A DNA stretch of 31,645 nt from a virus. Below are positions 196 to 31,645 of this stretch, piece by piece. A model generated the notes under the pieces. The model saw only the letters and a program-made list of their open reading frames with translations, did no database searches and was not told the DNA's origin. Both the position numbers and the translations under genes were made by a program. The DNA lies in IMG/VR virus record IMGVR_UViG_3300025093_000073, positions 1-31,645 of that record; one strand, 5' to 3'. Each line of letters opens with the position of its first letter. Within the stretch, counting starts at the first letter, position 1.

Positions 196-223
196 ACAAT
201 ATAATTTTTTTACAATGTGTCAA
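196..223 (-). promoter_or_regulatory. Late-type promoter before chaperone gene (left copy)
   Basis: On the minus strand: TTGACA (223-218), a 16-base spacer ending in TTA, then TATTGT (201-196). Seven bases follow before the ATG at 188, so transcription would start within a base or two of the start codon. The -35 is TTGACACAT, shared with other late sites. The promoter lies directly downstream of the terminator T-tract at 228-235. Confidence 0.7.
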
Positions 224-333: not shown

Positions 334-1527
334 TTATCTCAACTTATATACCCCTCTGTTGCTTTCTGCCAATTCATTTAATGCCACGTAGCGTATCGCA
401 TCCATGCAATGATCAAACATCTTGATAGGCTTACCTGTTGCTTTGCCATTTTTGTCAATCTCCCACTTATAGGATTTTAACTCCTTGATAAGATTGGTTG
501 AATCTTTCTGCACTACAAAATCAAATCGCTTTAAAATGTCGATGCCGTTGTTAACTGAATCCTTGCCCTTTTTAGCAGGATGGATATTCATCCCCATACT
601 GTACAATTCATCTATACTCTTTGGCTCTGCTGAATCAGCAATAAACTTTGTCCGTAGGTCTATACCTTGCTGCTTAATCTGTTGATATAGTTCTCTATTG
701 TTGATGCCAACCCGGTAAAGCACTTCTCTAAAATATAGCTTGTTGCCATCACGATATACTTCAACAACACTTGCAGGGCTACTGCTATAACCAAAATCAA
801 TACCAACGGCAACAATACCAATCCTACTATCGATGCTATCACATAACTCAAAACTTTCATAAATTCTCCCTTCTATTTTTCCATACATACCCAATCCATA
901 AATTGTCCAAAAGGATTTATCTGTTGCCTCAAGCAACTCAATCTCTTTTACCAACGCATTGGATAGATACGTATTATGTTTATAATTACTAACTATAACG
1001 GCAACATCTTTCTCCTGTTGCTTTCTCTTTTGCTCCAACTCGGTATTTATCCATACATCCTCATCATCCGGGTTAAAGTCTAAAAATATTTTCTTCTCTG
1101 TTCTTATCAGCAGTTGGAAGAACTCTTTTTTGTAGTTCAGCTCATTCGCCTCATTGCAATAGAGGATGTCCTGCTTGTTACCTCGTAACTTCTGCTCATC
1201 GTCTGCGCCCATAAATTGCACAATCCTGTTCTCGTACTTGTACGTTTTCTTGGTCTTGTTATGTTCTACTTGCTCGTAGAATCCCTCGTTGTGCATTATC
1301 TCCTCAAAGTCTTTTACAACTGTATTGTCCAACGTTGTCCGATACTTACGAACTGTACTCCAAGTACCTGCGTGACAATACTGCCCATCCCCATAGCATC
1401 CTGTCATCAACCACAATGCGGAGAGCTGCGCAAGGGAGTAAGTTTTGCTTGATCTCGTACCTCCACGATTGATCACAATCTTCTCGGTTGCATCGTAATT
1501 CTTTTCGAATATCGGAGTAACTTTCAT
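334..1527 (-). CDS. terL: Terminase large subunit (ATPase + nuclease)
   Basis: The packaging motor cuts concatemeric DNA and pumps it into the prohead through the portal. In the 397 residues, a Walker A-like GGTRSSKT lies at 22-29 and a Walker B ILYCNEANE at 121-129 with catalytic Glu126. The RNase H-like nuclease shows its acidic triad at Asp244 (VGIDFG), Asp298 (IADS) and Asp376 (HCMDA). Length is normal for the family. The ATG shares ATGA with the stop of the 31-aa gene upstream, so translation is probably coupled. It is the last gene before the terminator at 228-253. The cut type (cos or pac) cannot be told from sequence. Confidence 0.95.
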   Translation of the reverse strand: MKVTPIFEKNYDATEKIVINRGGTRSSKTYSLAQLSALWLMTGCYGDGQYCHAGTWSTVRKYRTTLDNTVVKDFEEIMHNEGFYEQVEHNKTKKTYKYENRIVQFMGADDEQKLRGNKQDILYCNEANELNYKKEFFQLLIRTEKKIFLDFNPDDEDVWINTELEQKRKQQEKDVAVIVSNYKHNTYLSNALVKEIELLEATDKSFWTIYGLGMYGKIEGRIYESFELCDSIDSRIGIVAVGIDFGYSSSPASVVEVYRDGNKLYFREVLYRVGINNRELYQQIKQQGIDLRTKFIADSAEPKSIDELYSMGMNIHPAKKGKDSVNNGIDILKRFDFVVQKDSTNLIKELKSYKWEIDKNGKATGKPIKMFDHCMDAIRYVALNELAESNRGVYKLR

Positions 1528-1735: not shown

Positions 1736-2206
1736 TCATTCCTCATCTCTGTTGCGCTTTACTTCGATAGTTATTTTCTGCTCCTGTTTTATCTTCTCCG
1801 GCTCATTCATCCCAAGCATTTTAGCCAATGAATCCAATGCACCTTTAGCATCACTACCCTTGAGTAATCCACTATTACTCATGGCGTATATCTTCTCCTT
1901 GTCTGTCTTGGTCAACTTCTCTTTTTTCATCAAAGCTTTAATCTCCTCAAAAGTTTCAACCATCCCGATGTACTTCTGCACTATCCATTCCCGGTTGATA
2001 CTGTGTTGCTCGGCAGTCTGTTCCTTGAGTTGGTTCACCGTTTGGGTTATGTTTGGTTTTTGCATCAGTTTTGTTGCCTCTGTTCTTATCCAACTTTTAT
2101 CACTATTCTTTGGCTTGAATGCTTGTCTATATGCCTCCGATTGATTGCCCAATTCAACAACCAACTCTGCAAACTTTCTCTCTTTTATTGTCAGCTCTTT
2201 ACTCAT
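1736..2206 (-). CDS. terS: Terminase small subunit
   Basis: 156 residues. The N-terminal segment (about residues 5-60: KERKFAELVVELGNQSEAYRQAF, then a WIRTEATKLMQKPNI helix) is the Terminase_2-type helix-turn-helix that recognises phage DNA. It is followed by a helical oligomerisation region and a charged tail that would meet TerL. Length and position just upstream of terL fit the family. The ATG directly abuts the stop of the gene upstream (TGAATGA). It probably belongs to the late transcript starting at 2795-2822. Confidence 0.85.
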   Translation of the reverse strand: MSKELTIKERKFAELVVELGNQSEAYRQAFKPKNSDKSWIRTEATKLMQKPNITQTVNQLKEQTAEQHSINREWIVQKYIGMVETFEEIKALMKKEKLTKTDKEKIYAMSNSGLLKGSDAKGALDSLAKMLGMNEPEKIKQEQKITIEVKRNRDEE

Positions 2207-2494: not shown

Positions 2495-2733
2495 TCCTTT
2501 CCCTTTCGTCTGTTGGCATATTGCTCCTTGAGTTGAAAGTAATTTTTTGTTATTCGGCTCAAGGCTCTTGCAACGCATACATTGCATCCTCTATCAACCT
2601 TGTTGCCTGTCTCGGATTCATACAGGTTAAGCAATTGCCGTACCTCCTCTCCTTTGTTTCTGCTGATTGATTGTGTCCTGTAATACATAAACAGGATGTC
2701 ATCGTATTGTTTTAAATCTGTGTAGTAGCTCAT
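2491..2733 (-). CDS. Hypothetical 80-aa protein with a CxxC motif
   Basis: Mostly helical and charged, beginning MSYYTDLKQYDDILFMYYRT, with GCNVCVARAL near residues 49-58 and a basic end (NRRKGKE). The single CxxC pair is too little for a zinc ribbon unless it dimerises. It is linked by ATGA overlaps to the genes on both sides. If the promoter at 2795-2822 is real, this is the first whole gene of the late packaging transcript. Confidence 0.75.
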   Translation of the reverse strand: MSYYTDLKQYDDILFMYYRTQSISRNKGEEVRQLLNLYESETGNKVDRGCNVCVARALSRITKNYFQLKEQYANRRKGKE

Positions 2734-3017
2734 AACTTAAACAGTTTCAAATGTCGCTCAATCCCCTCTACAAGAATCGGACAAGCTCCAATGTATAATA
2801 TAAAGTTTTGGTTTATTGTCAATGTGATCATGATGGCTATCCAAATGGATAAACATACCGGGCAGCTCAATGGCTTATAAGATAGTGCAGTTAGTAGGAT
2901 TGCTCCGATGTAATACAGATACTTGTGAGCAGTAACCCTCTTGATGAAATCGGGCAGATAATCCGATACCAAGAAAGGAACAGTTGCGCAAAATATCAAT
3001 GCTTTTAACTCCTCCAT
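2730..3017 (-). CDS. Small membrane protein with CPVC motif
   Basis: 95 residues with about three hydrophobic segments: residues 7-20, 35-47 and 52-80. A CPVCLSIW sequence lies between the second and third. The Cys-Pro-x-Cys plus Trp at a membrane edge resembles small phage and Bacillus membrane proteins of unknown role; I am not certain of the family. It overlaps the sigma-like gene by 13 bases and the next gene by ATGA. A strong late-type promoter lies inside its coding sequence. Confidence 0.7.
   Translation of the reverse strand: MEELKALIFCATVPFLVSDYLPDFIKRVTAHKYLYYIGAILLTALSYKPLSCPVCLSIWIAIMITLTINQNFILYIGACPILVEGIERHLKLFKL
2795..2822 (-). promoter_or_regulatory. Late-type promoter for terS-terL, inside the membrane-protein gene
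   Basis: Minus strand TTGACA (2822-2817), 16-base spacer ending TTTA, TATTAT (2800-2795). Both hexamers are strong and the spacing matches the other late sites. It sits about 180 bases downstream of the end of the sigma-like gene and would start RNA near 2788, some 55 bases before the ATG at 2733. This would let the packaging genes be expressed separately from the middle operon. Confidence 0.65.
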
Positions 3018-3577
3018 AACTCCCTAAAGTTTTCGGGCATCAAACTCTTAACCCTCTTTAAACGATTGTGCAACCATCCGTAACTGAACGAACCTGCGCC
3101 CTGTTCTTTCAATTCATTGTACATTTCTTTGAAGTTGTATTGAACCCCAAAGTATGCCCTCATCAATCCGACATCAATAGCATCAAAGTCATTGCTGCCC
3201 TGCATAAATTGGATAACCCTCCTTTGCTCAACATACTCATCCCGATTATACCCTCCGTTTATGTCATTGGTAAAGTGATAAAGCTCAATAAAATTCTCGT
3301 AATCAATCGAATGAGGACAATTGTTCCGGTGCTTTAATCGTTGGTAATTGTATCGGGAGTAGCTGCTATTATAATTGATCAGCATAATCTTAGCGCAGTA
3401 ATCAATCAATTTATTCTCTCTGTGTATCGACATTATTTGCTCCTTGTCCTTTTCAAGTATCTGAATAATAACCTCCTGCAATAATTCATCTGCCTCGTTT
3501 CGGTTGCGCGTAATCTTCTTGCTCAAATCTTCAAGCAACCTGTAAACCTCTGTAATTGCATCCTCATAACTCGACAT
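3005..3577 (-). CDS. Sigma-70-like RNA polymerase sigma factor (phage-encoded)
   Basis: 190 residues. Residues about 15-85 look like sigma region 2: NEADELLQEVIIQILEKDKE is the usual region 2.1/2.2 helix that binds the beta-prime coiled coil, and LIDYCAKIMLINYNSSYSR follows as 2.3/2.4. Residues about 135-185 look like region 4: LMRAYFG, a YNFKEMYNEL helix and a SYGWLHNRLKRVKSLM recognition helix. It is the last large gene of the middle operon, followed immediately by a TTGACA-N16-TATTAT site. I infer that it directs host polymerase to the late promoters. A packaging-associated regulator without true sigma activity is the alternative. Confidence 0.75.
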   Translation of the reverse strand: MSSYEDAITEVYRLLEDLSKKITRNRNEADELLQEVIIQILEKDKEQIMSIHRENKLIDYCAKIMLINYNSSYSRYNYQRLKHRNNCPHSIDYENFIELYHFTNDINGGYNRDEYVEQRRVIQFMQGSNDFDAIDVGLMRAYFGVQYNFKEMYNELKEQGAGSFSYGWLHNRLKRVKSLMPENFRELWRS

Positions 3578-3818: not shown

Positions 3819-4066
3819 TTGCTCCTGTGTCTCATAAACAATGCTCTGTGTACAACCTCGTAATCTGTTGCAATCAATTTCTCATGTGAAACCTCAAACC
3901 AACTGCCAACATCATCAAATTTACGCATTTTGTATTTAAAGGATTCTCTTTGATTTTTGTAATCCCAATAATCAACTCTATCAAGCAGCTCATACACTTG
4001 CCCCTCAATTTTAAAAATGCTATCCAATGCGAAAGGGAAGTGCATTTCATTTTCTGTTTTTGTCAT
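3806..4066 (-). CDS. Hypothetical 86-aa protein
   Basis: A soluble, aromatic-rich small protein. The middle (IFKIEGQVYELLDRVDYWDY, KYKMRKFDDVGSWFEVSHEK) looks like a small beta barrel or SH3-like fold, from its pattern of short alternating strands. The ATG overlaps the methyltransferase stop (ATGA). Family not recognised. Confidence 0.65.
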   Translation of the reverse strand: MTKTENEMHFPFALDSIFKIEGQVYELLDRVDYWDYKNQRESFKYKMRKFDDVGSWFEVSHEKLIATDYEVVHRALFMRHRSKWMN

Positions 4067-5103
4067 ATCATTTTATTTAATATCCTCTCCAATACATTTA
4101 CGCTGATACTGTTTCCGGCTTGTTTATAGAGTTGCGTATCGGAGCATACCTCTTGAGCTTTAAAAAAAGCATCATCCGGGAATGCTTGTAGCCTCCAACA
4201 TTCAAGCGGAGTTAATCTTCTAATTTTTGATTGTACAATTGCTTGTGTGCATCCGGTATCTAACGTTTGTGCAACCCCTTTACCTACACGACCTCTACGT
4301 GTTTTTGAGTCTGCATAAGTATAGTTGATGCTATCCCCGTACTCCGCTATTTCATAACCACTTAATGTGTTGCTCTTTATTTTTACTTTGCTTTGTCCTG
4401 AATCCCATTCCAACACGAATCTCTCTATTACTGAATCACTCAAATAGTACTTCTCATCACATTCGGTTTGCAATACATCCTTTAACCTCAATCTTAATGG
4501 CTCAATTTTCGGAAATTTAAACGACCTAAACTCCTTAAATCCGACTATGAAAATGCGTTCCCGATTTTGGGGTACTCCATAATCTTTCGTGTTCAATACT
4601 TGGGCATATACGTGATACCCTAAACCATCATCAAATACGTCTAAGGACATTTGACCGTTTAGTGTACCACCACAATTCGTTAAGATGTCTGTAATGGTTT
4701 GGTATGTTCTGCCATTATCATGAGAGAGTAAACCTTTTACATTCTCAAGGATAAACATTTTCGGTTGATTGATTCGGATAAACTCGGCAACATCAAAAAA
4801 TAGTGTACCCCTTACATCGTCAAAACCTTTGCGCTGCCCGTTATTGCTGAATGGTTGGCAGGGAAACCCTGCAACGTACAAATCCAATTGTTCTACATCC
4901 TTGTGATTCCTTTTGGTTATATCAATGTAGAATTTTCCGGGAGCTTTATGGATAGCATCGTATGAATCTCTTGCATACTTGTCTATTTCGCAGGAAAAAA
5001 CCTGCTCGTAATCAATGCCCAAATTATTTAGAGCCATTTCGGGCGCACCAATTCCGCTAAAATCTGTGCCTACTTTCAGTCTTGTTTTGTTCATTTTGTT
5101 CAA
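4063..5103 (-). CDS. C5-cytosine DNA methyltransferase (orphan)
   Basis: Transfers a methyl group from SAM to cytosine C5 in DNA. All core motifs are visible in the 346 residues: I (FSGIGAPEMAL, from 15), IV (GFPCQPFS with catalytic Cys82), VI (ENVKGL), VIII (QNRERIFIVG), IX (RRLTPLECWRLQAF) and X (QAGNSISVNVL). The target-recognition region lies between VIII and IX (about residues 195-295). No cognate restriction enzyme is adjacent, so it most likely protects phage DNA. It could also supply 5mC as substrate for further base modification, given the glycosyltransferase at 8113-8949. Target site is unknown. Confidence 0.93.
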   Translation of the reverse strand: MNKMNKTRLKVGTDFSGIGAPEMALNNLGIDYEQVFSCEIDKYARDSYDAIHKAPGKFYIDITKRNHKDVEQLDLYVAGFPCQPFSNNGQRKGFDDVRGTLFFDVAEFIRINQPKMFILENVKGLLSHDNGRTYQTITDILTNCGGTLNGQMSLDVFDDGLGYHVYAQVLNTKDYGVPQNRERIFIVGFKEFRSFKFPKIEPLRLRLKDVLQTECDEKYYLSDSVIERFVLEWDSGQSKVKIKSNTLSGYEIAEYGDSINYTYADSKTRRGRVGKGVAQTLDTGCTQAIVQSKIRRLTPLECWRLQAFPDDAFFKAQEVCSDTQLYKQAGNSISVNVLERILNKMI

Positions 5104-5115
5104 TTTAACTATTAT

Positions 5116-6117
5116 CTAAAAAGGGCAATCCTGTTCTCCCCTAAATTCTTTTAACACTTCATTGTTCATTACTTCCATCTCTGTCTGTCTCTCTATTTCC
5201 TCCCCCTCTCCGAGAGGAGCTGCATACTTTTTATCGCCCCCCCTTAGTATCTCAAAGTATTTGCCTTGCTTTATGTCATAGGATAAACAGGTAGTACCCC
5301 TTACCCCTACAATGTTGGGCTTTGCCTTATCCACTTTTACATCTGTTGTATGGCTATCGAAATCCCGATGCACAATGATAACGCTCTTAGCATTGTTACC
5401 CCATTCGCTACCGCCTTTGAGCTGATGCATATCGGGCATAACAACCCTTCCATCCTTATCCTTTTTTGCAGTCTTGGGATGAATAATAGTGTGGAAATGT
5501 AACCCGGAGGATTCTGCCAATTCGTTTCTATTGGATAACGTTGCCTCCAACCACTTATCCTCCCTGCTAAATCCATCTGTATCATGGCGCATATAGTTCC
5601 ACGAATCAATTACCGCACTAAATAAATTCAATTTGTTTTTATTGGCAACGGCATACTCCCAAAACTCGGTAGGAGTTACTTGCTTTGACCTGTTGGATTG
5701 CTTTGGATTGTAGATATGAAAGTAGTTTAACACATCAAGGATATACCTGTCAACCTCTTGTAAACTGATTCTGTTCTCTATCTCTTGCCTCTGACCTTGT
5801 GCATCGTAGTAATGCTCATGGAATTGTTTACCGCTAAACTTGTGAAGGAGCTTGGCAATTACCTCTGCATTGCTCCCGGCATCGGGCATATAAATCAGAT
5901 GCTTATGATCGTAATACTCCGAGCAGTTTTTTAGCAGCTCAAATAATAACTCTGTTTTACCACTACCGGGATAACCTGTCCAATCCGTACAACTGCCCTC
6001 CTTTATGTTGTAATGCGGAGCAAGTTTTTTAAATCCGCAATAGAATACCTTACCGCCTCCATCTTTGTATAATTGTATAACCTCATCCCTAATATCCTGC
6101 AACTGTACTATCCCCAT
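5116..6117 (-). CDS. Replicative helicase / RecA-fold ATPase (DnaB-like)
   Basis: 333 residues with a Walker A GYPGSGKT at 48-55 and a Walker B-like hydrophobic strand ending in Asp (LFSAVIDSW, about 158-166). Downstream motifs (FHTIIHPKT, MHQLKGGSEWGNNAKSVIIVHR) fit the H3/H4 region of DnaB/Twinkle-type helicases, where QLKGG precedes the DNA-binding loop. There is no DnaB N-terminal domain and no primase. It overlaps the initiator gene by 10 bases, the usual initiator-helicase pairing. Expected role: unwinding at the phage origin after loading by the upstream protein. Confidence 0.85.
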   Translation of the reverse strand: MGIVQLQDIRDEVIQLYKDGGGKVFYCGFKKLAPHYNIKEGSCTDWTGYPGSGKTELLFELLKNCSEYYDHKHLIYMPDAGSNAEVIAKLLHKFSGKQFHEHYYDAQGQRQEIENRISLQEVDRYILDVLNYFHIYNPKQSNRSKQVTPTEFWEYAVANKNKLNLFSAVIDSWNYMRHDTDGFSREDKWLEATLSNRNELAESSGLHFHTIIHPKTAKKDKDGRVVMPDMHQLKGGSEWGNNAKSVIIVHRDFDSHTTDVKVDKAKPNIVGVRGTTCLSYDIKQGKYFEILRGGDKKYAAPLGEGEEIERQTEMEVMNNEVLKEFRGEQDCPF

Positions 6118-6782
6118 CTTCGTGCCTCCTCTCGCAGTTTCTTAATGTGTGCCTCCTGTTTCTCATAGGCATCCATCTCCTCCTCTTTCTTGTATTGGAT
6201 AGCATCTTTTTCTCCCATCCATTGCTCAGCTACATTGCGCCACTTCTTGGCTATTGGTTTGTTTTTGGTATTTAACCAATCTAAAGAATTGTAATAATGA
6301 AAGAATTTATCTGCGAACTCCTCAACGTATCCTCTGCTATTAAAATACTCTCGCACCATTTCAATCGTTGGTGCATCCTTAGTAGTAACAGTAACAGTTA
6401 CATTATCATTTACATTAACAGTATCAGTAACAGTAACAGTATCAGTTATTTTTGTTATAGCATTTATAACACTGTTATCCTCTGTTATAACATTGTTATC
6501 CTTTGTTATGCTTTTGTTCTTGTTCCATCTGCTTTGCATCCCTTTCTTACCTGCCTCGCTGCGTTTCTGTTTCTGACGCTCCCAATCTTTCAAGTCTCTT
6601 TTTAATTGTCGTTTGATTGGTTCAAATGCAACGGATAAAAGAACATCCTCAACTTGTGGATTCTTATCGTTTACATAGTCAAGGATTAATTTAAACAACT
6701 TCCCTGCAACCTCATCCGGGAGCTTGTCTACTGTGTGAATCAAGTCACAGTAAAGAACAAATGAATTTTTGTTTTTAGCCAT
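6108..6782 (-). CDS. Putative replication initiator / helicase loader (DUF6291-like N-terminus)
   Basis: 224 residues. The N-terminus (NSFVLYCDLIHTVDKLPDEVAGKLF to about residue 90, with a KRSEAGKKGMQSRW basic segment) resembles the DUF6291-type domain of phage replication proteins. A low-complexity linker at about 92-140 is rich in Thr-Val, Asn-Asp and Ile-Thr repeats. The C-terminal domain (about 140-224; FNSRGYVEEFADKFFHYYNSLDWL and KKWRNVAEQWM) is the kind seen in DnaD/DnaT-like loaders. It sits directly upstream of the helicase. The linker DNA carries regularly spaced repeats that may be the origin (6453-6509). It starts 28 bases after a structured RNA/terminator. Confidence 0.7.
   Translation of the reverse strand: MAKNKNSFVLYCDLIHTVDKLPDEVAGKLFKLILDYVNDKNPQVEDVLLSVAFEPIKRQLKRDLKDWERQKQKRSEAGKKGMQSRWNKNKSITKDNNVITEDNSVINAITKITDTVTVTDTVNVNDNVTVTVTTKDAPTIEMVREYFNSRGYVEEFADKFFHYYNSLDWLNTKNKPIAKKWRNVAEQWMGEKDAIQYKKEEEMDAYEKQEAHIKKLREEARRWG
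6382..6450. repeat. Hexanucleotide-rich tract in initiator gene
   Basis: Near-tandem GTAACA/GTTACA/GTATCA hexamers. On the coding strand they are ACT-GTT repeats that make the Thr-Val linker. The tract is A/T-rich and flanks the phased TGTTAT repeats on one side. It may be only a protein-level repeat, but its place next to the iterons makes it a candidate for part of the origin. Confidence 0.55.
6453..6509. repeat. Phased TGTTAT iterons inside initiator gene (candidate origin)
   Basis: TGTTAT begins at 6453, 6473, 6483, 6494 and 6504, spacings of 20, 10, 11 and 10 bases, that is, about one helical turn apart. One copy (6483-6492) is part of the perfect palindrome TGTTATAACA. The array lies in the linker-coding part of the initiator gene, the same arrangement as the iterons in lambda O. 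Origin function is inferred. Confidence 0.5.
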
Positions 6783-6877: not shown

Positions 6878-6885
6878 CAAAGATA
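6878..6885 (-). promoter_or_regulatory. Bacteroidetes-type -7 element TATCTTTG
   Basis: Minus strand TATCTTTG, one base past the stop codon of the nuclease gene, followed by the structured RNA. Upstream, AGTTGAAATAAA is nearly the same as the sequence before the matching element at 321-328 (AGTTGAGATAAA). A canonical -33 at the usual distance is not evident. Confidence 0.5.
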
Positions 6886-8112: not shown

Positions 8113-8949
8113 TTATTTATTTATTGTTATTAATTTCATTCCATATTCATTAACTCGGTCTTTGACAATATCATCATAATTATCAACCCGAATCAATTTA
8201 TTTTTTTTGAATGGCTTGTAATTTACTTGATGATGCCATCTCCCGAATCTCCAAACCACTTTTGCAACATCGGGATGTTGTTTTGCCAACGATTCAGCAA
8301 ATTCTTTTCTCTGATTAGTTTCGTTATATATTTTTTCATTACCTCCTTTTATCTTTTGTGTTTGTGATTTTTGTTGCAAAAAAGCCAAAAATAAAACAGT
8401 ACAATATCCATCCTTTAAAACTCTTATACTTAAATCGGTATCCTCATTATATTTACCTCTCCATCTGTGAGGAATAGAATTATCAATTAAAGTGCAACTG
8501 TAAATTCTTGTGTTCATTCTGTATGGATTCCATTTACATCTACTCTTTACAAAAAAGTCATATTCTAATCCTGCCAATGCAATATTTTTGTATCTATCAA
8601 CAAAGTCCTCAACGCATCTAAATATTGCTCCTGTGTTACATTTTACTTGAAAATTATTATTCAATCTATTGAATTGCTCAATATTATCGTCCATTATCCA
8701 ATGCCGTTTGTAACCTTGTTTTTTTGAATGTTCAAATATCCAATTTCTTGCAGGAATTGAACCCTGTTCTAAATTTGAAAACGGCAGAGTTAATAGGTTT
8801 TTATTATCAATATGCTTTGAATATTGTTCAAATTCTTGTGGCTCTACAACAACCCGATAATCTACACCCATATTATTTAGAGCTTTTATTGTTAATCTGC
8901 TCTCGTGCCTTCCTTTTGATGGTATATAAATTGGATATTTAAGATTCAT
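8113..8949 (-). CDS. TET-associated-type DNA glycosyltransferase (TAGT family)
   Basis: I recognise the conserved pattern of the TET-associated glycosyltransferase family: YPIYIPSKGR (5-14), QGSIPARNWIFEHS, a DxD-like HWIMDDN (83-89), NTRIYSC, the YNEDTDLSIR metal/sugar site, and RFGRWHHQVNYKPF. These enzymes are predicted to add sugars to oxidised or hydroxymethylated bases in phage DNA. The start at 8949 is preferred, giving 278 residues and an 11-base overlap; 8973 is also open. No TET/JBP dioxygenase is in the genome, so the acceptor base is unclear. A 5mC-derived or host-supplied modified base is possible, since a C5 methyltransferase is encoded at 4063-5103. Confidence 0.8.
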   Translation of the reverse strand: MNLKYPIYIPSKGRHESRLTIKALNNMGVDYRVVVEPQEFEQYSKHIDNKNLLTLPFSNLEQGSIPARNWIFEHSKKQGYKRHWIMDDNIEQFNRLNNNFQVKCNTGAIFRCVEDFVDRYKNIALAGLEYDFFVKSRCKWNPYRMNTRIYSCTLIDNSIPHRWRGKYNEDTDLSIRVLKDGYCTVLFLAFLQQKSQTQKIKGGNEKIYNETNQRKEFAESLAKQHPDVAKVVWRFGRWHHQVNYKPFKKNKLIRVDNYDDIVKDRVNEYGMKLITINK

Positions 8950-9187
8950 CAATGTACATTTTATCGGATGCAATTCTATTATCCATCACAGGAAACCAAA
9001 TTGATTTTGCTTTTGGAGTAATTATTTGATTTATCAATTTTGAAAATATAGCAATATCCTTCTCATTCCTAAAATGAACTATTAACTTTCTGTAACTTGT
9101 TAAATCTTGCTGATTAAATTCGGGCATATCTTTCCACTCCTTTTCCCATTCATTTTCTAAATCGGGAAATAAATTTTGCTGACTCAT
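8939..9187 (-). CDS. Small partner of the glycosyltransferase (82 aa)
   Basis: An acidic N-terminus (MSQQNLFPDLENEWEKEW) rich in Trp and Glu precedes a small alpha/beta domain, LIVHFRNEKDIAIFSKLINQ and ITPKAKSIWFPV, that ends in MYIDES. I recall this pattern beside TAGT-type genes in other phages but cannot name a family. It overlaps the glycosyltransferase by 11 bases and its upstream neighbour as TAATG. A targeting or regulatory subunit is a reasonable inference from that fixed pairing. Confidence 0.7.
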   Translation of the reverse strand: MSQQNLFPDLENEWEKEWKDMPEFNQQDLTSYRKLIVHFRNEKDIAIFSKLINQIITPKAKSIWFPVMDNRIASDKMYIDES

Positions 9188-10613: not shown

Positions 10614-10621
10614 CAAATATA
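10614..10621 (-). promoter_or_regulatory. Early-type -7 element TATATTTG
   Basis: Minus strand TATATTTG (TAnnTTTG consensus) within TTAATTTATATATTTGTG, nearly the same as the site at 12665-12672. It precedes the recombination operon; the RNA would start near 10607, 17 bases before the ATG. No good -33 TTG is visible. Confidence 0.5.
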
Positions 10622-12664: not shown

Positions 12665-12672
12665 CAAATATA
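12665..12672 (-). promoter_or_regulatory. Early-type -7 element TATATTTG
   Basis: Minus strand TATATTTG within TTAATTTTATATATTTGAG, closely matching the site at 10614-10621. RNA would start near 12658, upstream of the ATG at 12644. The 105-base divergent gap (12645-12749) also must hold the promoter of the plus-strand nuclease gene, for which I see only a loose TTG...TATTTTT match at about 12720-12745. Confidence 0.5.
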
Positions 12673-12749: not shown

Positions 12750-13040
12750 ATGGGCAGACGAGCAGCAAGGATAGATTCAAACCAAAATGAAATAGTTACA
12801 ATGCTCCGCAAGATGGGCTATTCTGTTGCCATCACTTCTGATTGTGGAAAGGGATTCCCGGATATTGTTGTAGGTAGGTCGGGCAGAAACTATCTATTTG
12901 AAATCAAAGATGGAAACAAACCTAAATCAGCGCAGAAACTAACAGAGGCAGAGCAGCAATTTGCCGATACTTGGAAAGGGCAATACAACGTAATTACCTG
13001 CCTTGACGATGCAATTAAGATACTGAGGAGATCAGATTAA
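12750..13040 (+). CDS. VRR-NUC domain nuclease (only plus-strand gene)
   Basis: 96 residues with the PD-(D/E)XK resolvase-like core: Glu14 on the first helix (NQNEIVTMLRKMGY), GKGFPDIVVG with Asp38, and LFEIKDG with Glu51 and Lys53, followed by LTEAEQQFADTW. Stand-alone VRR-NUC proteins of this size cut branched DNA such as Holliday junctions. It runs against the rest of the genome, and its last 26 bases overlap the end of the convergent gene at 13015. Opposite orientation and its own promoter suggest independent control or later acquisition. Confidence 0.85.
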   Translation: MGRRAARIDSNQNEIVTMLRKMGYSVAITSDCGKGFPDIVVGRSGRNYLFEIKDGNKPKSAQKLTEAEQQFADTWKGQYNVITCLDDAIKILRRSD

Positions 13041-16287: not shown

Positions 16288-18315
16288 CTATTGTTGTTTA
16301 CGTCTAACTATTGTCTGTTGCCAAATGTGTCTGCACCATTTTGTCTTTCTGCCTGTTCTCGGATTGTTATACCAACCTCCTCTGTAATTAAAGACTGATA
16401 ATCCCATACCATTGTCTAATGTGGTTATTTCATCCCTTGTGTATAACTTTCGTTGCAACATCATTTTAATACAAAAATCTCTTGACCTTGTTTTTAAAGG
16501 AGGAGCATCAGAGCGCAGGGCATACCGATAAACAACCATCAAGGTCGGCTCTATATCTTCCTCAACGATTGTATCTATCCCATCCCTTGTAACTTCTCTC
16601 CTTACTAATCCATCTCTTTCGCTGATTGCAATTGCTCCTGTTGTTTCCAATTTCGCCAAGCTCTGTGCAACTTCATCCTCTGTTATTTTCAATGCTCGTG
16701 CAATGTCTGTGGTTGAGGCATCGGGATTGTTTTGGAGTTGTTGCAATACTGCCAAATCAGTTGATGACAATCCGGGTATAGCTGCGAATTTATGCAACTC
16801 CGCTTTCGCCTTGTCATCCTCAATTAAAAACTCCTCAATGTTCGTACATTCCAATTCCTTAAATGATACAATCTCAAAGTCATCCTCATCGTATCCGCAA
16901 TTGCTAAAATGCTCTAAGATAGCTGCCTCAACATCTTTATCCTCATTGAAATCGGTTGTTGTTGTTGTGGTTGTTCTCGTAACCTCCGATACTTCGGGCA
17001 ATCCAACCAATGCTCTTATCTCCGCAATGGTCATGTTGTCAAGTACCTTAGTTGCAACCAATGGCGATATCATACCGATTGCATCAGCAACAGGATTCGT
17101 TGCTCCCTCAAGCTCATCCATTCCAATCATTTCCCTTATCTCCTCCTGCGTCAAGTTGGCAACCATTGTAGCATTATCTATCTGCGCTTTGACAGGTTCT
17201 AATGGCTTAATCTCAAGGATGCCGGGTACACCATTAACCAACAGAATGGAGTTAAATAAATCCTCCTTGCTCTCCTGCTTTGGAGTAACGTAACGATGTT
17301 GGAAACTACTGTGAGCAACTCGCATCTCATCGGCATTGTTGGAGAATCCTGTACCCTCCGATGCCCATCCAAAAAGAATAGGATTAATTACCCTGTGTCC
17401 AATGGTCAATGCTGAATCAATGCGCTCCTCTAATATCTGATATTGCTTGTCTAAATTGCTTGGAGTAATTGTCGTTATCTCTGCGCTCCTATCCTTGTTA
17501 TCCGAAAAGTTCAAAATGAATTTACCTGCGTTGTCAGTCCCTGCAAACTTTTCCGCAATCTGTCTCTCCAATAACTCTGCCTCCTCATCCGTCGGGATGC
17601 CGTTAGAAAAATTTATTAGAAAGCTCGGCACAAACTGATTCTTAATGTTGTTGAGGTCAAAGTTTGCCAATTCATAATCTGCCTCAATAAGTGGTACGGC
17701 AGGTAGGTAACTTGGCAATGGATAAACCTCCTTAGAATTGCTACAATCAACGGCAAGTATCTGCTTTCCTCCTCTGTTGTTTACATCGAATGCCGGGATT
17801 ACTTCCCAATCCTCATTGTTCTCCGGCTTTCTTTGTGTCCAATCCTGCGTATAGTAAAAGAATGTTTTATCCTCGTTTGTTCTAAGATAACGGAAATCCA
17901 TATAGTTTACCTCTGCAATACTCTCACGATCATTGCTCCAAATGATCTCTAAATAGTAACCGCCATACAGAACATCGTCAAAGTTTGTAAGGTAGTTTAA
18001 CCTGTTCAATGTTTCATCGGGATTCGGAGCAGCGATAAATGCTTTGGCTTGGGCAATGGCTTGATTAGTTACGTTGGCAGTCTTGTCAACCTTCCATCCT
18101 CGCCCTGTCAAAAATTCTACTTTGCCATCAACCAATGCTCGATGCTTGGAGCTACGATTATACAAGTCCAACAGATACTGTGGGTAATTATTCCTGTATT
18201 GTTTCTCTGTGCCGAAACAAACGTAATCTTTGTTTTTTTCCTCCTTAATTTCGGGTGGCTTAGACATTGAGAAATCTAATGCAATTACGTTGTATTTATT
18301 CTTTAAGTTATCCAT
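16288..18315 (-). CDS. Portal protein with C-terminal winged-helix and CRHIW domains
   Basis: The portal ring anchors packaging and the neck. In the 675 residues, the first 430 or so carry portal-like features (HRALVDGKVEFLTGRGW, FDDVLYGGYYLEIIW, SALTIGHRVINPILFG). A Thr-rich linker near 445-455 is followed by an acidic region. A winged-helix-like segment lies at about 513-579 (SSTDLAVLQQLQNNPDASTT, DIARALKITEDEVAQSLAKL, ETTGAIAISERDGLVRRE). The last 90 residues contain SRDFCIKMM, YRGGWYNNPRTG and WCRHIW, a domain usually found on minor head proteins. So this looks like a portal fused with extra modules. Length is larger than typical portals of 450-550. Confidence 0.82.
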   Translation of the reverse strand: MDNLKNKYNVIALDFSMSKPPEIKEEKNKDYVCFGTEKQYRNNYPQYLLDLYNRSSKHRALVDGKVEFLTGRGWKVDKTANVTNQAIAQAKAFIAAPNPDETLNRLNYLTNFDDVLYGGYYLEIIWSNDRESIAEVNYMDFRYLRTNEDKTFFYYTQDWTQRKPENNEDWEVIPAFDVNNRGGKQILAVDCSNSKEVYPLPSYLPAVPLIEADYELANFDLNNIKNQFVPSFLINFSNGIPTDEEAELLERQIAEKFAGTDNAGKFILNFSDNKDRSAEITTITPSNLDKQYQILEERIDSALTIGHRVINPILFGWASEGTGFSNNADEMRVAHSSFQHRYVTPKQESKEDLFNSILLVNGVPGILEIKPLEPVKAQIDNATMVANLTQEEIREMIGMDELEGATNPVADAIGMISPLVATKVLDNMTIAEIRALVGLPEVSEVTRTTTTTTTDFNEDKDVEAAILEHFSNCGYDEDDFEIVSFKELECTNIEEFLIEDDKAKAELHKFAAIPGLSSTDLAVLQQLQNNPDASTTDIARALKITEDEVAQSLAKLETTGAIAISERDGLVRREVTRDGIDTIVEEDIEPTLMVVYRYALRSDAPPLKTRSRDFCIKMMLQRKLYTRDEITTLDNGMGLSVFNYRGGWYNNPRTGRKTKWCRHIWQQTIVRRKQQ

Positions 18316-18614: not shown

Positions 18615-19847
18615 TTACATTGTTCTAATGAATAAAGCAGTTCTTGTTGATAAGCTTGTTATTTGATTGTTTCCGCTGACTACTCCGTTTATATTACGAC
18701 TGAAATATCGTGTGGTTGTACGCATCGAACAAGAATCTAAAAGCGATGTGAATACTGCTTGTCTGAAATAGGCATTTTTAAAATAGGTGCTTGTTCCATT
18801 CCACGGAATAGAATTTATTTCGTGCATTGCTGCAATTCGCCAATCTGAATGACCGTATATATTCAAAGTAGCTGCAAGGTTCAAATTATTAATGTAATTT
18901 GAATTAATTATTGTACTCGCCGTTGCAATAGCTATATTTTCATAATGCCACATTAATCCTGTTAGATGGTCTTCTGTCAACCATCTTTTATCGGTCAAAT
19001 CTCCAACGACTGCATTTGCCCAATCTTGACCGCCTAAACCATCTGTGAACCGATTCTTGTTTCCCCACTTATTATCCAAAGTCAATGTTTCAGCGTTCAA
19101 ATCTGTCGCATCCAATGTTTGTATTATACCACCACTTTGAGCATATCCTGTAGTGTACGTTCCATTTTGGTATTGCCATCCATCGTCGTATGTCGCATAA
19201 CTTGTTACAAGTCCGAAACGTGGCGTTGGTCTTGCGTAGATAGTACCCGATGCTCCCGGCGTACAAACCACATCCGTATTCGCAGGAACATTTGAAACGC
19301 TGCCATCTGAATCAGTAAACGAAATATCGGGAGCAGTATAGGTAACTCCCGGAGCAATAACTTGCGTAAAACTTGAATCACTATTTTGGTAGGTTGCATC
19401 TGTTGGAGGAGGAGCAGGAGAAATTCCGGTACTTGCAAAGACATCCCAAGCATGGAAATCTTGCGTCGGATTTTGATAGTAACTAAATGCAGTACTTTGC
19501 CTATCTCCGTCAATCAATACTCTTGCCTTGCCTGTTTCAAGCAACACAGTACCGGGAGCATTGGGAGCAAGATTGGTTGCGCTTGTCTGCTCGTAGATAT
19601 TGTATGTAAAGAACCCAACAGGTTCAAGTAATATCTGCGCTAATAATCCATCGGGAGATGTTTGCTCTGTGATCGTAAATTCATTATACCTTGCAGGATA
19701 AGAGCTTGTATCGGGAGCAATGCAGGTCGTACTGATTAGAGATGTATCAGAGATAAACTCTATCAAGTAAACAGGATTAGACAAAGTTGATAACTCTGCC
19801 AATGATACCCGGATTGTATTACTACTATTCTTCGTCAGTACTAACAT
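18615..19847 (-). CDS. Virion surface protein with DUF1566/Lcl-type lectin-like C-terminus
   Basis: 410 residues. The N-terminal beta domain (about 1-115; NPVYLIEFISDTSL, GFFTYNIYEQTSATNLAP, VLLETGKARVLID) looks like a virion-attachment module. A Ser/Thr/Pro-rich linker spans about 130-230. The C-terminal 180 residues carry Lcl_C/DUF1566 marks: RWLTEDHLTGLMWHYENI, GHSDWRIAAMHEINSI and a final TRTALFIRTM strand, a C-type-lectin-like fold. It could bind host-surface or environmental glycans from the capsid or tail. There is no reverse transcriptase or template repeat, so it is not a diversity-generating target here. Confidence 0.7.
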   Translation of the reverse strand: MLVLTKNSSNTIRVSLAELSTLSNPVYLIEFISDTSLISTTCIAPDTSSYPARYNEFTITEQTSPDGLLAQILLEPVGFFTYNIYEQTSATNLAPNAPGTVLLETGKARVLIDGDRQSTAFSYYQNPTQDFHAWDVFASTGISPAPPPTDATYQNSDSSFTQVIAPGVTYTAPDISFTDSDGSVSNVPANTDVVCTPGASGTIYARPTPRFGLVTSYATYDDGWQYQNGTYTTGYAQSGGIIQTLDATDLNAETLTLDNKWGNKNRFTDGLGGQDWANAVVGDLTDKRWLTEDHLTGLMWHYENIAIATASTIINSNYINNLNLAATLNIYGHSDWRIAAMHEINSIPWNGTSTYFKNAYFRQAVFTSLLDSCSMRTTTRYFSRNINGVVSGNNQITSLSTRTALFIRTM

Positions 19848-20004
19848 CCTCTATCTTGTCAGCTTTTTTCTTTTTGGTTGCTTTCTCAAATACGTCGAAT
19901 CCGTATGCCTTTGCTATCTTCTTAAACTTGGCAGAGTCCTCAATTAAGAACCTCATTCCCTTGTGCTGAATGTAGCTGCCAATCAATTGCTTTTTAATCT
20001 TCAT
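19825..20004 (-). CDS. 59-aa basic/acidic small protein upstream of the lectin-like gene
   Basis: ATG at 20002-20004, TAG at 19825-19827, overlapping the next gene by 23 bases. It begins MKIKKQLIGSYIQHKGMRFL, continues IEDSAKFKKIAKAYGFDVFE, then a KKKKADK run and an acidic VSTDEE tail. The core resembles small head-module proteins carrying a GFDVFE-type motif in related phages, as far as I recall. The late-type promoter at 20010-20037 ends five bases before its ATG, which strongly supports the gene. Confidence 0.75.
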   Translation of the reverse strand: MKIKKQLIGSYIQHKGMRFLIEDSAKFKKIAKAYGFDVFEKATKKKKADKIEDVSTDEE

Positions 20005-20009
20005 ATCTT

Positions 20010-20037
20010 ATAATATAAAACTTTCGAAATGTGTCAA
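20010..20037 (-). promoter_or_regulatory. Late-type promoter before the 59-aa gene
   Basis: Minus strand TTGACA (20037-20032), 16-base spacer ending TTTTA, TATTAT (20015-20010). Only five bases separate the -10 from the ATG, so the transcript would be leaderless. The -35 starts three bases after the T-tract of the terminator at 20041-20067. Confidence 0.75.
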
Positions 20038-20040
20038 AAT

Positions 20041-20067
20041 AAAAAAGGGATTGCATAAAGCAACCCC
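20041..20067 (-). terminator. Intrinsic terminator after the candidate tail-tube gene
   Basis: Minus strand stem GGGGTTGC (20067-20060) / GCAATCCC (20054-20047), 8 bp with one G-U, loop TTTAT, then six T (20046-20041). It separates the capsid/tail-tube transcript from the promoter just downstream. Confidence 0.85.
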
Positions 20068-20092
20068 CTCTTATCTTGTATGAATGAATGTA

Positions 20093-20623
20093 TTATACTG
20101 CTATTGTAAGACCTGCGATAACGGCTGCATCCACTTCGTAAACATCGTGTGTCTGCTTTGCCATTAGGTTTATGGAGTATCCGTTAAGGTCTCCAAACGC
20201 AGTCCCGGTTGAACTGTTATTTGTTCCACCTGTTTTATGCGCTCCTCTTTCATCGCCTAATAGAAAGTATTTACCCTCTACTGTTTTAATAATGGCAACG
20301 ATTCTTTGAATCGCTAATAGGTTTAATTCATTGCATTTAGATGCCTCCATTTTCGTTACAGTAAACGACAAGTTAGCATCATAAAAAAGCGAGTTGTTTT
20401 GAACTGATTTAGTTTCTGTTGTTTCCAACAAACCAACTTCTTCGTTCAGTTCATATCTGTACCAAGTAGATGGCGCACCGCTTGTTGTTATTGCAGTTAC
20501 CTCGCAGTTGGTTACTGTGATGGATGTTAACTCCTCAAAAGCGAGGAGATATGCTTCGGATATTCCTCCGGCAGGCGCCTCACAATTATAGCGAGTTACC
20601 CCTGATGTTAGTGCACAGCTCAT
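20093..20623 (-). CDS. Virion structural protein, candidate major tail tube protein
   Basis: 176 residues, beta-rich with few helices: TSITVTNCEVTAITTSG, TWYRYELNEEVGLLETTETK, NLSFTVTKMEASKCNELNLL, then AFGDLNGYSINLMAKQTHDV. The strand-helix-strand layout and the KMEASKCNEL helix fit tail-tube-like folds. It follows the capsid gene and has its own terminator, which fits a highly expressed structural gene. A head decoration protein is the main alternative. Confidence 0.55.
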   Translation of the reverse strand: MSCALTSGVTRYNCEAPAGGISEAYLLAFEELTSITVTNCEVTAITTSGAPSTWYRYELNEEVGLLETTETKSVQNNSLFYDANLSFTVTKMEASKCNELNLLAIQRIVAIIKTVEGKYFLLGDERGAHKTGGTNNSSTGTAFGDLNGYSINLMAKQTHDVYEVDAAVIAGLTIAV

Positions 20624-20691: not shown

Positions 20692-21621
20692 TTAGACAAG
20701 AGTAAACTCTACCAACTCGGCAGGGTATGCAACTTGTGTACCTCGCTTAAATGAAATGCTTGACTTCACGTTGCGGTCGTCTTGGCTATACCACATTTCC
20801 ATCTCATCATCTCCCATTGCATCCATTCCAATGTAGAAGTTAGATGCTCTACCTGCGAAGATTCTGTTTGTACCTGTCAAACCATTTACCGCTACTATCT
20901 TCAATCCTGTACCCGGTAACATTAGCTCTCCGTTTGCAGTCGCCTCATCGGTTGCATAGTGGAAGAAATTAGAATCTGTGATGTTGATTACCAAGTTACG
21001 GAAAGAATCCCATCCCATAAAGCAAACCAAGTCATCTGCGTTCAATACGCTTGTAGGAATAACAGAGTAAATACCTTGTACAATGTCAAGAGCATTAGTT
21101 GAAGTGATTCCTGTTGCAACAGTTACACCACCAACGTTACCATCAACAGATGCAGCAGCAGCGTCGATAACTGTAATGAATCCGTCATAGAAACCTAAGT
21201 TACCTGCACCAACTCCATCCTCTCCTTGCCAATCAGCAAGTTCAAGAGAATCCTGTAGTCTCTGCATCTTTATGTCCATGTATGCAGCAGGAATGTCAGA
21301 CTCGTCATAGTTTGATCCTGCTCTCAATAGAATCTGTGTCCATTTTGCCTCAAGGTCTTTTGGGCACAATGCCTCTTGTACCTTGATTGCCTCAACTGCT
21401 AAATTCCTTTGGGAAAATGTAGTTGTGCCGGATGAAGCGAATGCGCAATCGTCGTCTTGGAAAACAACGCTTGAATCGAATAATTGTAGTGCTGCACTAC
21501 TCTTGATGCCTACCTGTATATTAACAAGTGAGGCAGTTTTTCCTGCACTTACCGCAGGTAATAATAAATCCGTTGATGTTTGGTCAACGTAATCTACTAA
21601 AGCTGATACATCAAATGCCAT
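20692..21621 (-). CDS. Major capsid protein
   Basis: 309 residues, in the usual HK97-fold range. The N-arm helix is MAFDVSALVDYVDQTSTDLL, then PKDLEAKWTQILLRAGSNYD and AAYMDIKMQRLQDSLELADW as the spine-type helix. The A-domain-like part carries LVCFMGWDSFRNLVINITDS, and the end has SSISFKRGTQVAYPAELVEF. The scaffold gene lies immediately upstream, then the protease. Capsid role rests on fold pattern and context; there is no single motif. Confidence 0.8.
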   Translation of the reverse strand: MAFDVSALVDYVDQTSTDLLLPAVSAGKTASLVNIQVGIKSSAALQLFDSSVVFQDDDCAFASSGTTTFSQRNLAVEAIKVQEALCPKDLEAKWTQILLRAGSNYDESDIPAAYMDIKMQRLQDSLELADWQGEDGVGAGNLGFYDGFITVIDAAAASVDGNVGGVTVATGITSTNALDIVQGIYSVIPTSVLNADDLVCFMGWDSFRNLVINITDSNFFHYATDEATANGELMLPGTGLKIVAVNGLTGTNRIFAGRASNFYIGMDAMGDDEMEMWYSQDDRNVKSSISFKRGTQVAYPAELVEFTLV

Positions 21622-21625
21622 CTTT

Positions 21626-22282
21626 TTACTTTTTTAGTTTTTTAATTATGTTTAATTTATCTTGAAAGGATGGCTCTGTTCTTTTGAACGCATCCGATTT
21701 TCTTTTAATTGTTGGTGTTGCGCTTGGTTCTTTGCTCAACTCCTCCAATGTCTTAACTACTTGAGATTTAAACTCCTCATTTGACTTCAATGCCTCTGCA
21801 AGTTTCTCTTCAAGCTCTGCAAATTTTCTCTCTACTTCTGTTCTTTCAATAACAGTTTTTGGAGTTGGCTCTTGAGCAACTACCTCATCGCTCATCTCCT
21901 CCTCAATTTCCTCTGCTGCCTCTTCCTCTGCAACTTCCTCCTCTGATGGGATTATCTCTGTGATAACGCCTCCGACAGTAACTATCTTTTCTCCACTTGC
22001 CAATTCATGCTCTGCATCGGGAGCAGGTATAATTCCATCCTCTGTTACAACGGCAACACTTGCGCCTAATTCGATGTCGGGTTCAATGTTTACAATAGTA
22101 CCATCAGCAAGTTGTGCATCAACAAAATTTTCCTTTTCAATTTCGGTTGTTTCCTCTGTTGATGTTTCGATTGTCTCCTCAGTTGCCTCTGCCGTTGGCT
22201 CTGCAACCTCCTCAACCACTTCATTAAATGCCAACTTTCTCAAGGCATCAATGTTGTTTTTTAAGTTTTCTCTAATGTTCAT
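21626..22282 (-). CDS. Scaffolding protein (acidic)
   Basis: 218 residues, strongly Glu-rich, with a central stretch VAEEEAAEEIEEEM. A coiled coil lies at about 145-190 (KFAELEEKLAEALKSNEEFK then VVKTLEELSKE), and the C-terminus is basic (FQDKLNIIKKLKK). A helical, acidic protein with a basic C-terminal helix beside the capsid gene is the classic scaffold layout; the basic end would contact capsid subunits. A small GASVAVV...GIIPAPD beta segment sits near residues 70-110. It should be removed by the protease encoded upstream. Confidence 0.75.
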   Translation of the reverse strand: MNIRENLKNNIDALRKLAFNEVVEEVAEPTAEATEETIETSTEETTEIEKENFVDAQLADGTIVNIEPDIELGASVAVVTEDGIIPAPDAEHELASGEKIVTVGGVITEIIPSEEEVAEEEAAEEIEEEMSDEVVAQEPTPKTVIERTEVERKFAELEEKLAEALKSNEEFKSQVVKTLEELSKEPSATPTIKRKSDAFKRTEPSFQDKLNIIKKLKK

Positions 22283-22302: not shown

Positions 22303-22330
22303 ATAATGTAAGTAAATTATTATGTGTCAA
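22303..22330 (-). promoter_or_regulatory. Late-type promoter before scaffold gene
   Basis: Minus strand TTGACA (22330-22325), 16-base spacer ending CTTA, CATTAT (22308-22303). RNA would start near 22296, giving a 14-base leader before the ATG at 22282. The -35 is again TTGACACAT. The site lies in the 51-base gap between protease and scaffold genes. Confidence 0.7.
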
Positions 22331-22333: not shown

Positions 22334-23239
22334 TTATCCGTTGATTGCGTCAATGGCTGCATCAATGATCTGCTCATCTGTTGGTATTGCCTCCTCTTTG
22401 GCAAACATTCCCTCTACGCTAAATCCTTTGTACTTGCCCTCTTTTATTTCATTCCACACCTTGTCGTTATCAACCCTCATGGATACGAACCATGAACCAT
22501 CGGGAGCATCTTGGAAACCATCGGGAGCAGTAACCCCTCTGTCTTTGTCAATCAGCAACGATTCAAACACATAAACATCCTTGACCGGGCTATTGTGCAT
22601 TAGATTGATTTCCGAGTTTAATCCTTGTCGCATAAACTTGTTGACTATCTTCTCAATGGTTGGTTTACGAAATACAACGTAATGGTCTCCAACCTGCTCA
22701 TCGTATCTGTAAATCGGCAAGTCTGCAACCATAGCATAACCCGATGCAATGCGCTTATCTTCATCCGCTACCTTGAATGTAAGTTTGTTAAACTGCGCAT
22801 TGTTTCTCTGCTCCATTTTATTCAATGCCCAATTAATCCCGGATGTACCTCCCCAAAGTAACCACGCTAAATATCCGCAATCTTTCCAAGGTGTATCCTT
22901 ATACTCTGCATTGACCTCCGCATTATCTCTGTGTCTGTTAAATGATGCCATCCTGCCAATGGTATCCCAAGATAAAGCCTCTCCGTTTTTGAGTTGCCTT
23001 GCTCTTGCAAGACCTACCCTCGTATAATTGCAGTTAATTTCATCCTCATACTCGTCAATCCATCTCAATGCTTTGGCTGCGTTGTTGGATGCTGATTCGG
23101 GATAGTCATCGTAAGATTCTTGGAACTCTGCATTGAACATTTGAAAGTCTCGCTCAATGGCAGGTAGGTCAACCAATGCAATCATTGATACACCGCTTTC
23201 ATCCTCCTCGTCGATAATTAGTTCAAATAGTTTCTCCAT
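22334..23239 (-). CDS. Prohead protease, XkdF-like
   Basis: 301 residues. The N-terminus (LFELIIDEEDESGVSMIALV, then DLPAIERDFQMFN) and the C-terminal half (GYAMVADLPIYRYDE, YVVFRKPTIEKIVNKFM, MHNSPVKDVYVFESLLID, GFSVEGMFAKEE) match XkdF-type phage serine proteases that mature the prohead. Inserted at about 45-145 is a helical domain containing KALRWIDEYEDE, GLARARQLKNGEALS and YLAWLLWGGTSGINWA, seen in some Bacteroidetes phage members. Next to scaffold and capsid as expected. Confidence 0.82.
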   Translation of the reverse strand: MEKLFELIIDEEDESGVSMIALVDLPAIERDFQMFNAEFQESYDDYPESASNNAAKALRWIDEYEDEINCNYTRVGLARARQLKNGEALSWDTIGRMASFNRHRDNAEVNAEYKDTPWKDCGYLAWLLWGGTSGINWALNKMEQRNNAQFNKLTFKVADEDKRIASGYAMVADLPIYRYDEQVGDHYVVFRKPTIEKIVNKFMRQGLNSEINLMHNSPVKDVYVFESLLIDKDRGVTAPDGFQDAPDGSWFVSMRVDNDKVWNEIKEGKYKGFSVEGMFAKEEAIPTDEQIIDAAIDAING

Positions 23240-23244: not shown

Positions 23245-23272
23245 AAAATGTAAAGTTGTTTAATGTTGTCAA
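23245..23272 (-). promoter_or_regulatory. Late-type promoter before protease gene (weak -10)
   Basis: Minus strand TTGACA (23272-23267), 16-base spacer ending TTTA, CATTTT (23250-23245). Five bases separate it from the ATG at 23239, so the message would be leaderless. The whole element fits in the 35-base gap after the tape-measure gene. Confidence 0.6.
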
Positions 23273-30689: not shown

Positions 30690-30965
30690 CTATCGCCTCG
30701 CTTTGAATTCGTTTAACTGCCTCAACTTCTCGTAATACTCCTCCTTGTCCTTGTAGTAAAGCAACAGATTGAGAAACTCGATGAGCTTCATATCGTAATA
30801 GTATTCCCATTTCTCCGGGCAGCCATTCGATAGGTTGTCCAATGTTACATACCATCCCCATGCCTCAAGTCCTCCTCCACCTGCTTTAGTATTTCCTGCG
30901 CTTTGGCGAGTTGGTTGTTGCCATAGTCTTTCATAGTTGCTATTAATTCGTGAGAGATTGTCCAA
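30690..30965 (-). CDS. Frameshift extension (T part) of the tail assembly chaperone
   Basis: This frame has no convincing start codon of its own: only a TTG at the slip site. It continues the upstream gene if the ribosome slips -1 on the T9 run at 30972-30964. It would add 91 residues, including GLEAWGWYVTLDNLSNG and a helical KLIEFLNLLLYYKDKEEYYE region, to the first 175 residues, giving a 266-aa product. That helical C-terminus is what GT-type chaperones use to bind tape measure. The alternative is a separate, poorly initiated gene. Confidence 0.75.
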   Translation of the reverse strand: MDNLSRINSNYERLWQQPTRQSAGNTKAGGGGLEAWGWYVTLDNLSNGCPEKWEYYYDMKLIEFLNLLLYYKDKEEYYEKLRQLNEFKARR

Positions 30966-31489: not shown

Positions 31490-31496
31490 ACACAGT

Positions 31497-31524
31497 ATAA
31501 TATAATTTATTTAGAATGTGTCAA
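31497..31524 (-). promoter_or_regulatory. Late-type promoter before chaperone gene (right copy)
   Basis: Minus strand TTGACA (31524-31519), 16-base spacer ending ATTA, TATTAT (31502-31497), then seven bases to the ATG at 31489. It is the strongest member of the set and agrees with the left copy at the -35 and in spacing. Confidence 0.75.
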
Positions 31525-31528
31525 GCAT

Positions 31529-31554
31529 AAAAAAAAGGGATGCGAATGCACCCC
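31529..31554 (-). terminator. Intrinsic terminator after terL / small RNA (right copy)
   Basis: Identical to 228-253: 7-bp GC-rich stem and T8, with no substitutions between copies. Confidence 0.8.
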
Positions 31555-31621
31555 TCTTTCTGTAACAAAACAAAAACCTATCAGAAAGGATGCCAAGAAC
31601 AGGCATCATCAATAGACATCA
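31529..31621 (-). ncRNA. Candidate small structured RNA (right copy)
   Basis: Same three-hairpin layout as 228-320. The only changes are in hairpin 2's loop and just before hairpin 1. The strand variants keep every stem, which supports a real structure. Confidence 0.55.
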
Positions 31622-31629
31622 CAAAGATA
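31622..31629 (-). promoter_or_regulatory. Bacteroidetes-type -7 element TATCTTTG (right copy)
   Basis: Second copy of the element at 321-328, unchanged, followed by the structured RNA and preceded by the terL stop codon. Confidence 0.5.
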
Positions 31630-31645
31630 GTATTTTATCTCAACT

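Follow-up and report, generated by a model that had tools for sequence, protein, structure and literature searches.

A putative phage sigma factor and candidate late promoters in a presumed Bacteroidota siphovirus and its relatives

The minus-strand gene at 3005-3577 encodes a sigma-like protein of 190 aa (region-2-like N-terminus, probable C-terminal helix-turn-helix) and lies between the early/replication genes and the packaging genes of a phage genome, which raises the question of whether its product directs the host polymerase to a dedicated class of late promoters. We addressed this question in IMGVR_UViG_3300025093_000073, positions 1 to 31,645; the whole 31,645-nt stretch is called the window below.

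The genes lie almost all on the minus strand of the window. In that direction, the early/replication genes are followed by a C5-methyltransferase gene, the sigma-like gene and a small membrane-like gene (2730-3017, minus strand; a 95-aa ORF that comes next after the sigma-like gene in all lineages); by the small terminase (1736-2206, minus strand; phrog_51, 1.4e-14) and the large terminase (334-1527, minus strand; phrog_5653, 2.4e-34); by the tail block, a tape-measure-like gene and a protease-like gene (22334-23239, minus strand); and by 21626-22282, 20692-21621, 20093-20623, 19825-20004, 18615-19847 and the portal-like gene (16288-18315). The window ends, 1-344 and 31302-31645, repeat each other (344-bp overlap, 96.2% identity, 13 mismatches), suggesting that the genome is circular or terminally redundant and was assembled from strains that differ slightly. 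We infer a Bacteroidota host from the relatives and from the TATATTTG elements.

The tape-measure-like gene (23275-25239) shows 45% identity to L145, against 93-97% for the adjoining tail genes, and looks as if it had been exchanged. In the portal-like protein, an additional C-terminal segment (~residues 518-573) matches HTH families of phage transcription regulators, and the single opposite-strand ORF (12750-13040, plus strand) of this otherwise one-strand genome resembles endonuclease/resolvase families (phrog_93, phrog_5702). A glucosyl-HMC-glucosyltransferase-like gene (8113-8973; phrog_842, 5e-52) and the C5-cytosine methyltransferase gene (4063-5103) make it possible that the phage DNA is modified and glycosylated.

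Five sites at the heads of late blocks

A motif search returned five minus-strand 28-mers with 0 mismatches to TTGACA-N13-TTAYATTWT, exactly where the initial annotation had placed them, and no match in any of 100 dinucleotide shuffles, so that chance was rejected as their origin. Candidate late promoter 1 (2795-2822) stands ahead of small genes and the terminases; promoter 2 (31497-31524) heads the tail block, with the ATG of 30845-31489 7 nt downstream; promoter 3 (23245-23272) and promoter 5 (20010-20037) each lie 5 nt from an ATG, that of the protease-like gene and that of 19825-20004, respectively, the latter block running to the portal; and promoter 4 (22303-22330) lies 20 nt from the ATG of 21626-22282. 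Gene annotation bears out that the shared motif precedes late genes only: all five sites are ahead of terminase, head or tail genes, and none is ahead of replication genes. The segment at 196-223 (minus strand), previously given as a copy of promoter 2, does sit in the 344-bp end overlap, although it carries one mismatch (TATTGT).

No additional site with one mismatch or fewer was found when the window was scanned with the 28-mer, and with up to three mismatches there were 16 matches versus 10 +/- 3 by chance; the five thus form a discrete, sharply bounded set. Gapped-dyad enumeration ranked TTGACA + ATTAT among the top dyads, with exact dyad counts barely above those of shuffles, so that the argument depends on the motif as a whole and on its being conserved. 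A scan of viral contigs with a 15-base pattern, which is unspecific at that scale, gave many single matches among the matches listed and was left unused.

The 2795-type site is kept in 16/16 related contigs carrying the sigma-like gene (78-100% identity), and longer contigs among these relatives also keep the other sites. Promoters 3 and 4 have homologous sites in L140, L141 and L150, promoter 5 has one in L140, and promoter 2 is kept at the homologous gene in relatives. In L141, whose proteins are mostly 37-81% identical to those of the window, the 23245- and 22303-type sites have largely different spacers, with TTGACA, TTAYATTWT and the exact distance all retained. Spacer positions carry ~0-1.3 bits across 19 unique non-intragenic sites; as the search pattern dictates the fixed motif positions in this set, what carries weight is the recurrence, at homologous genes, of matching sites whose spacers have diverged.

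Promoter 1 does follow 3005-3577, but it is intragenic, which the initial annotation left unstated: it lies inside the ORF 2730-3017, and the next start codon (2733) is ~60 bp downstream. The synonymous-difference fraction in this ORF is 0.12 exactly at the promoter, compared to ~0.24-0.56 over most of the remaining gene. This minimum indicates that the DNA is constrained, not the protein alone, and rules out protein constraint as the cause of the intragenic site.

Strong hairpins with U-tracts, of the intrinsic-terminator type, stand directly before two of the sites: one (31530-31561, minus strand; -18.7 kcal/mol, z -6.2) ends 5 bases upstream of TTGACA in promoter 2, and the other (20042-20072, minus strand; -17.8 kcal/mol, z -4.2) ends 4 bases upstream of it in promoter 5. 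One might hold that the sites are repeats, operators or chance matches, given that one of them is intragenic and that the promoter reading is drawn from sequence; we judge this highly improbable in view of their absence from shuffles, their placement on the coding strand at the heads of late blocks, the fixed distance to the ATG, the two terminators and the conservation with divergent spacers. Taken with the synonymous constraint and with the other motifs found at the same genes in distant relatives (see below), this conservation and the ATG and terminator context strongly support the reading of the five sites as functional phage late promoters.

Geometry and comparison with host promoters

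The motif had been written TTGACA-N16-TATTAT. These letters are present, but the second hexamer was probably set off by two bases, as TTGACA-N14-TAYATT agrees better with the -7 frame of the host and with the other lineages. In three promoters out of five, the ATG comes 5-7 nt after the 28-mer and 7-9 nt after the TAYATT hexamer (at promoter 2, the 28-mer distance is 7 nt in the window and 5 in most relatives). In F. johnsoniae, TAHHTTTG spans -12 to -5 and the start follows after 4-5 nt (PMC6847099); if TAYATTWT is read in this frame, the predicted start coincides with or adjoins the A of the ATG at 23245 and 20010 and lies close to it at 31497, and a short leader would be kept at 22303. The short hexamer-to-ATG distance at these three promoters predicts leaderless late mRNAs, which, if true, would be an exception to host practice: leaderless mRNAs are rare in hosts, amounting to a few percent (3.7% at <10 nt in B. 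thetaiotaomicron, 5.5% in F. psychrophilum).

Host-type -7 elements are also found in the window. TATATTTG occurs at 12665-12672 (minus strand), 20 nt from the ATG of an early gene, and at 10614-10621 (minus strand), before recombination genes; TATCTTTG occurs at 6878-6885 (minus strand), before 6108-6782. All three are noncoding TAHHTTTG elements, in agreement with the earlier assignment of TAnnTTTG to the early/middle part, but that assignment was too narrow: TATCTTTG also occurs at 31622-31629 (minus strand) before the tail block, ~100 bp upstream of promoter 2 and upstream of its terminator, and is found upstream of the 31497-type site in some relatives too. The late sites themselves all read TAYATT(A/T/G)T.

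These late sites share the TA--TT core and the distance to the start with Bacteroidota primary-sigma promoters (TTTG / TAnnTTTG; PMC6847099), and differ from them in the invariant TTGACA, the missing TG end and the closer first element. They could be variant promoters of the host primary sigma, with TTG-N17-TAYATTWT as a form of TTG/TAnnTTTG; late use would then come from a phage activator, DNA replication or DNA modification, and the sigma-like protein would do something else. The TA, the TT and the lack of G at -10/-9 fit TAHHTTTG, the 5-nt distance to the ATG fits the host start distance, and F. psychrophilum has several variants around TAnnTTTG. We nonetheless consider this unlikely: the TG end of the host -7 element is never present in the late sites; TTGACA, absent from every reported flavobacterial class, is invariant in them; true TATATTTG elements stand at other genes of the same genomes; and the motifs of clade B (TACAAT) and phage P12024S (CGTTA), located at the same genes, misfit the host consensus.

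The sigma-like protein and its counterparts in other lineages

Sequence matches of the window protein are weak but largely of the sigma kind, and fall mainly on its N-terminal part: Pfam Sigma70_r2 (E 0.0097; 16.1 bits against a cut-off of 24), PHROG sigma factor (0.0049) and NCBIfam sigma families (0.002-0.14). The protein has a region 2.2 signature of the DELLQEV type. Its AlphaFold model (pLDDT 56) was too poor to search, and the Foldseek matches were unrelated; the L021 protein gave no NCBIfam match, profiles A1 and A3 matched no relevant PDB sequence, and profile A1 found no homologue in genome contigs.

A syntenic homologue is the L151 protein, encoded shortly before the small terminase on a contig whose terminase is 62% identical to that of the window. 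The profile of 17 relatives finds it (hmmsearch 2e-4), and hhalign of the window family against it gave 0.0015 over 42 residues (EADELLQEV / LAEDLKQEV). With its model (pLDDT 61; first 70 residues 71-84), the first 21 Foldseek entries were all sigma-factor chains, mostly ECF, with a best E of 0.066, chain F of three 9m9 entries being counted as sigma from list position and title. Residues 1-84 align to sigma2 at Z 5-7.6 for most of the 21 chains, which is middling by itself; it is the consistency of this unbiased search that argues for the sigma reading of the model. As to a C-terminal helix-turn-helix, HTH_30 gave 0.007 in the L151 protein, and the C-terminal halves are modelled at low confidence. 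Ahead of this sigma-like gene, L151:7840-7893 contains TATATTGC, a fit to TAnnTTGY, a motif (SM5) described for F. psychrophilum.

The weak region-2 matches, the DELLQEV-type signature and the syntenic L151 homologue, whose model matches sigma factors almost exclusively, indirectly support the 3005-3577 product as a sigma factor; the earlier label of a sigma-70-like protein is thus upheld in part, with the window protein itself falling under every curated cut-off.

L151 leads to clade B (>40 loci), in which the sigma-like gene again precedes the small membrane-like gene and the terminases, and the late proteins are ~25-46% identical to those of the window. The clade B motif, TACAACT-N13-ACAATA (i.e. 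TACAAC-N13-TACAAT-N7-ATG; ATG usually 6-8 nt after ACAATA), stands before homologues of 30845-31489, 19825-20004 and 21626-22282; its 21626-type sites have AAACAATA in place of TTACAATA. The clade B sigma genes carry a host-type TATATTTG 4-5 nt before the GTG start in 5/6 loci inspected. At L275:14530 and L227:3335 of this clade, the host-type TATATTTG directly adjoins TACAACT, as if host-read and phage-read promoters were fused in tandem.

Nonlabens phage P12024S is a distant relative (portal 26% identical to that of the window). Like the window, it has a sigma-like gene shortly before the terminase (P12024S_33; Sigma70_r2 Pfam 1.4e-5, 25.2 bits, above cut-off) and ATG-adjacent elements before late genes; unlike the window, its elements read AMACAM-N14-nCGTTA-N7-ATG, and no full-length homology was detected between the window protein and P12024S_33. 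There are seven such elements, each of them ahead of a late gene or immediately before the terminase, with a spacer of 14 in 6/7 (13 in 1/7) and the ATG 7 nt after CGTTA in 6/7 (6 nt in 1/7); the strict pattern gave 5 elements against 0.08 expected. In the compared set, the motifs of the window lineage and clade B have no matches outside their own lineages, and the P12024S motif occurs once as a stray, in a phage that is unrelated. The partial L151 contig has the sigma-like gene and no motif that we could find; in the terminase relatives L152 and L154-L157, neither a sigma homologue nor a motif was recognisable. Matched sigma/promoter pairs would be expected to show just such a pattern, a shared slot and geometry with letters that differ.

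A proposed early-to-late switch

We propose that the host polymerase with its own primary sigma reads TAnnTTTG promoters in front of the early/middle genes, the sigma-like gene coming at the end of this gene set; that the 3005-3577 product then binds the host core polymerase, with the -10-like TAYATT recognised by region 2 and TTGACA by the C-terminal HTH, a two-domain recognition that would impose the rigid spacing; and that the late promoters are fired by this factor, promoter 1 driving the terminases and the others the tail and head blocks. At 3/5 promoters the first transcribed base would be the A of the ATG or a direct neighbour of it, giving leaderless late mRNAs, and the terminators just upstream of two promoters would insulate late units; where the sigma-like protein of a lineage has diverged, its promoters would have diverged too, with the geometry unchanged. 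We regard this proposal as a whole, built on sequence comparison and structure models, as probable.

Its two halves differ in strength. Late use of the sites is the strongly supported half of the switch that the initial annotation had envisaged; that the 3005-3577 product reads them is circumstantial, a link drawn from gene position and from lineage-by-lineage co-divergence of sigma and motif, which is also expected from general lineage divergence without a causal link. The overlap of TAYATT with the host TAnnTT pattern and the host-type element before the tail block count against the proposal, as do the sub-cut-off sigma matches of the window protein and the lack of a motif in the partial L151 contig. 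Alternatively, a host ECF sigma might read the late promoters, as might the host polymerase together with a different phage regulator such as another small middle-operon protein, or the sigma-like protein might be an anti-host or appropriation factor. Several small uncharacterised genes do share the operon of the sigma-like gene, and the sigma assignment of the window protein is weak; but the sigma-like gene keeps the same slot just before the terminases in all lineages examined, and the motif changes from lineage to lineage, as it would not need to if a host factor read it. We think it quite improbable that one of these accounts is correct, and favor the phage factor as the reader of the late sites.

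A phage sigma with dedicated late promoters is already a known kind of system. SPO1 gp28 and T4 gp55 are late sigma factors that switch the host polymerase to late genes, in genomes, with promoter sequences and with accessory factors that differ from those of the window. The phages phiEco32 and 7-11 make a phage sigma from host-read genes, which then drives middle/late genes from a few well-conserved phage-specific promoters (PMC4331800). The window resembles them in its putative phage sigma and small set of well-conserved, phage-specific promoters; it differs in the host phylum, in that no anti-sigma gene was identified in the window, and in promoters made of two elements at a rigid distance, mostly on the start codon. 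In searches of open-access papers, which make up part of the literature, we found no account of a Bacteroidota phage sigma whose late promoters had been mapped or predicted. The lineage-specific, leaderless-type version in Bacteroidota phages thus appears undescribed, its newness lying in lineage-specific promoters of fixed, start-codon-adjacent geometry.

In conclusion, our results are compatible with a Bacteroidota siphovirus family with fast-diverging two-domain (ECF-like) sigmas, each matched to a lineage-specific late promoter for the switch to mostly leaderless late mRNAs, whereas the host sigma would read the early genes and, in some lineages, also the sigma gene; for this broader picture we see the chances as evenly balanced. 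Little has been described of temporal control in phages of Bacteroidota, and the three lineages of the same geometry and different letters offer natural sigma/promoter pairs for specificity tests, which could yield orthogonal expression tools for Bacteroidota. If the picture is true, late transcription in these phages would depend neither on the host sigma nor on neighbouring phages.
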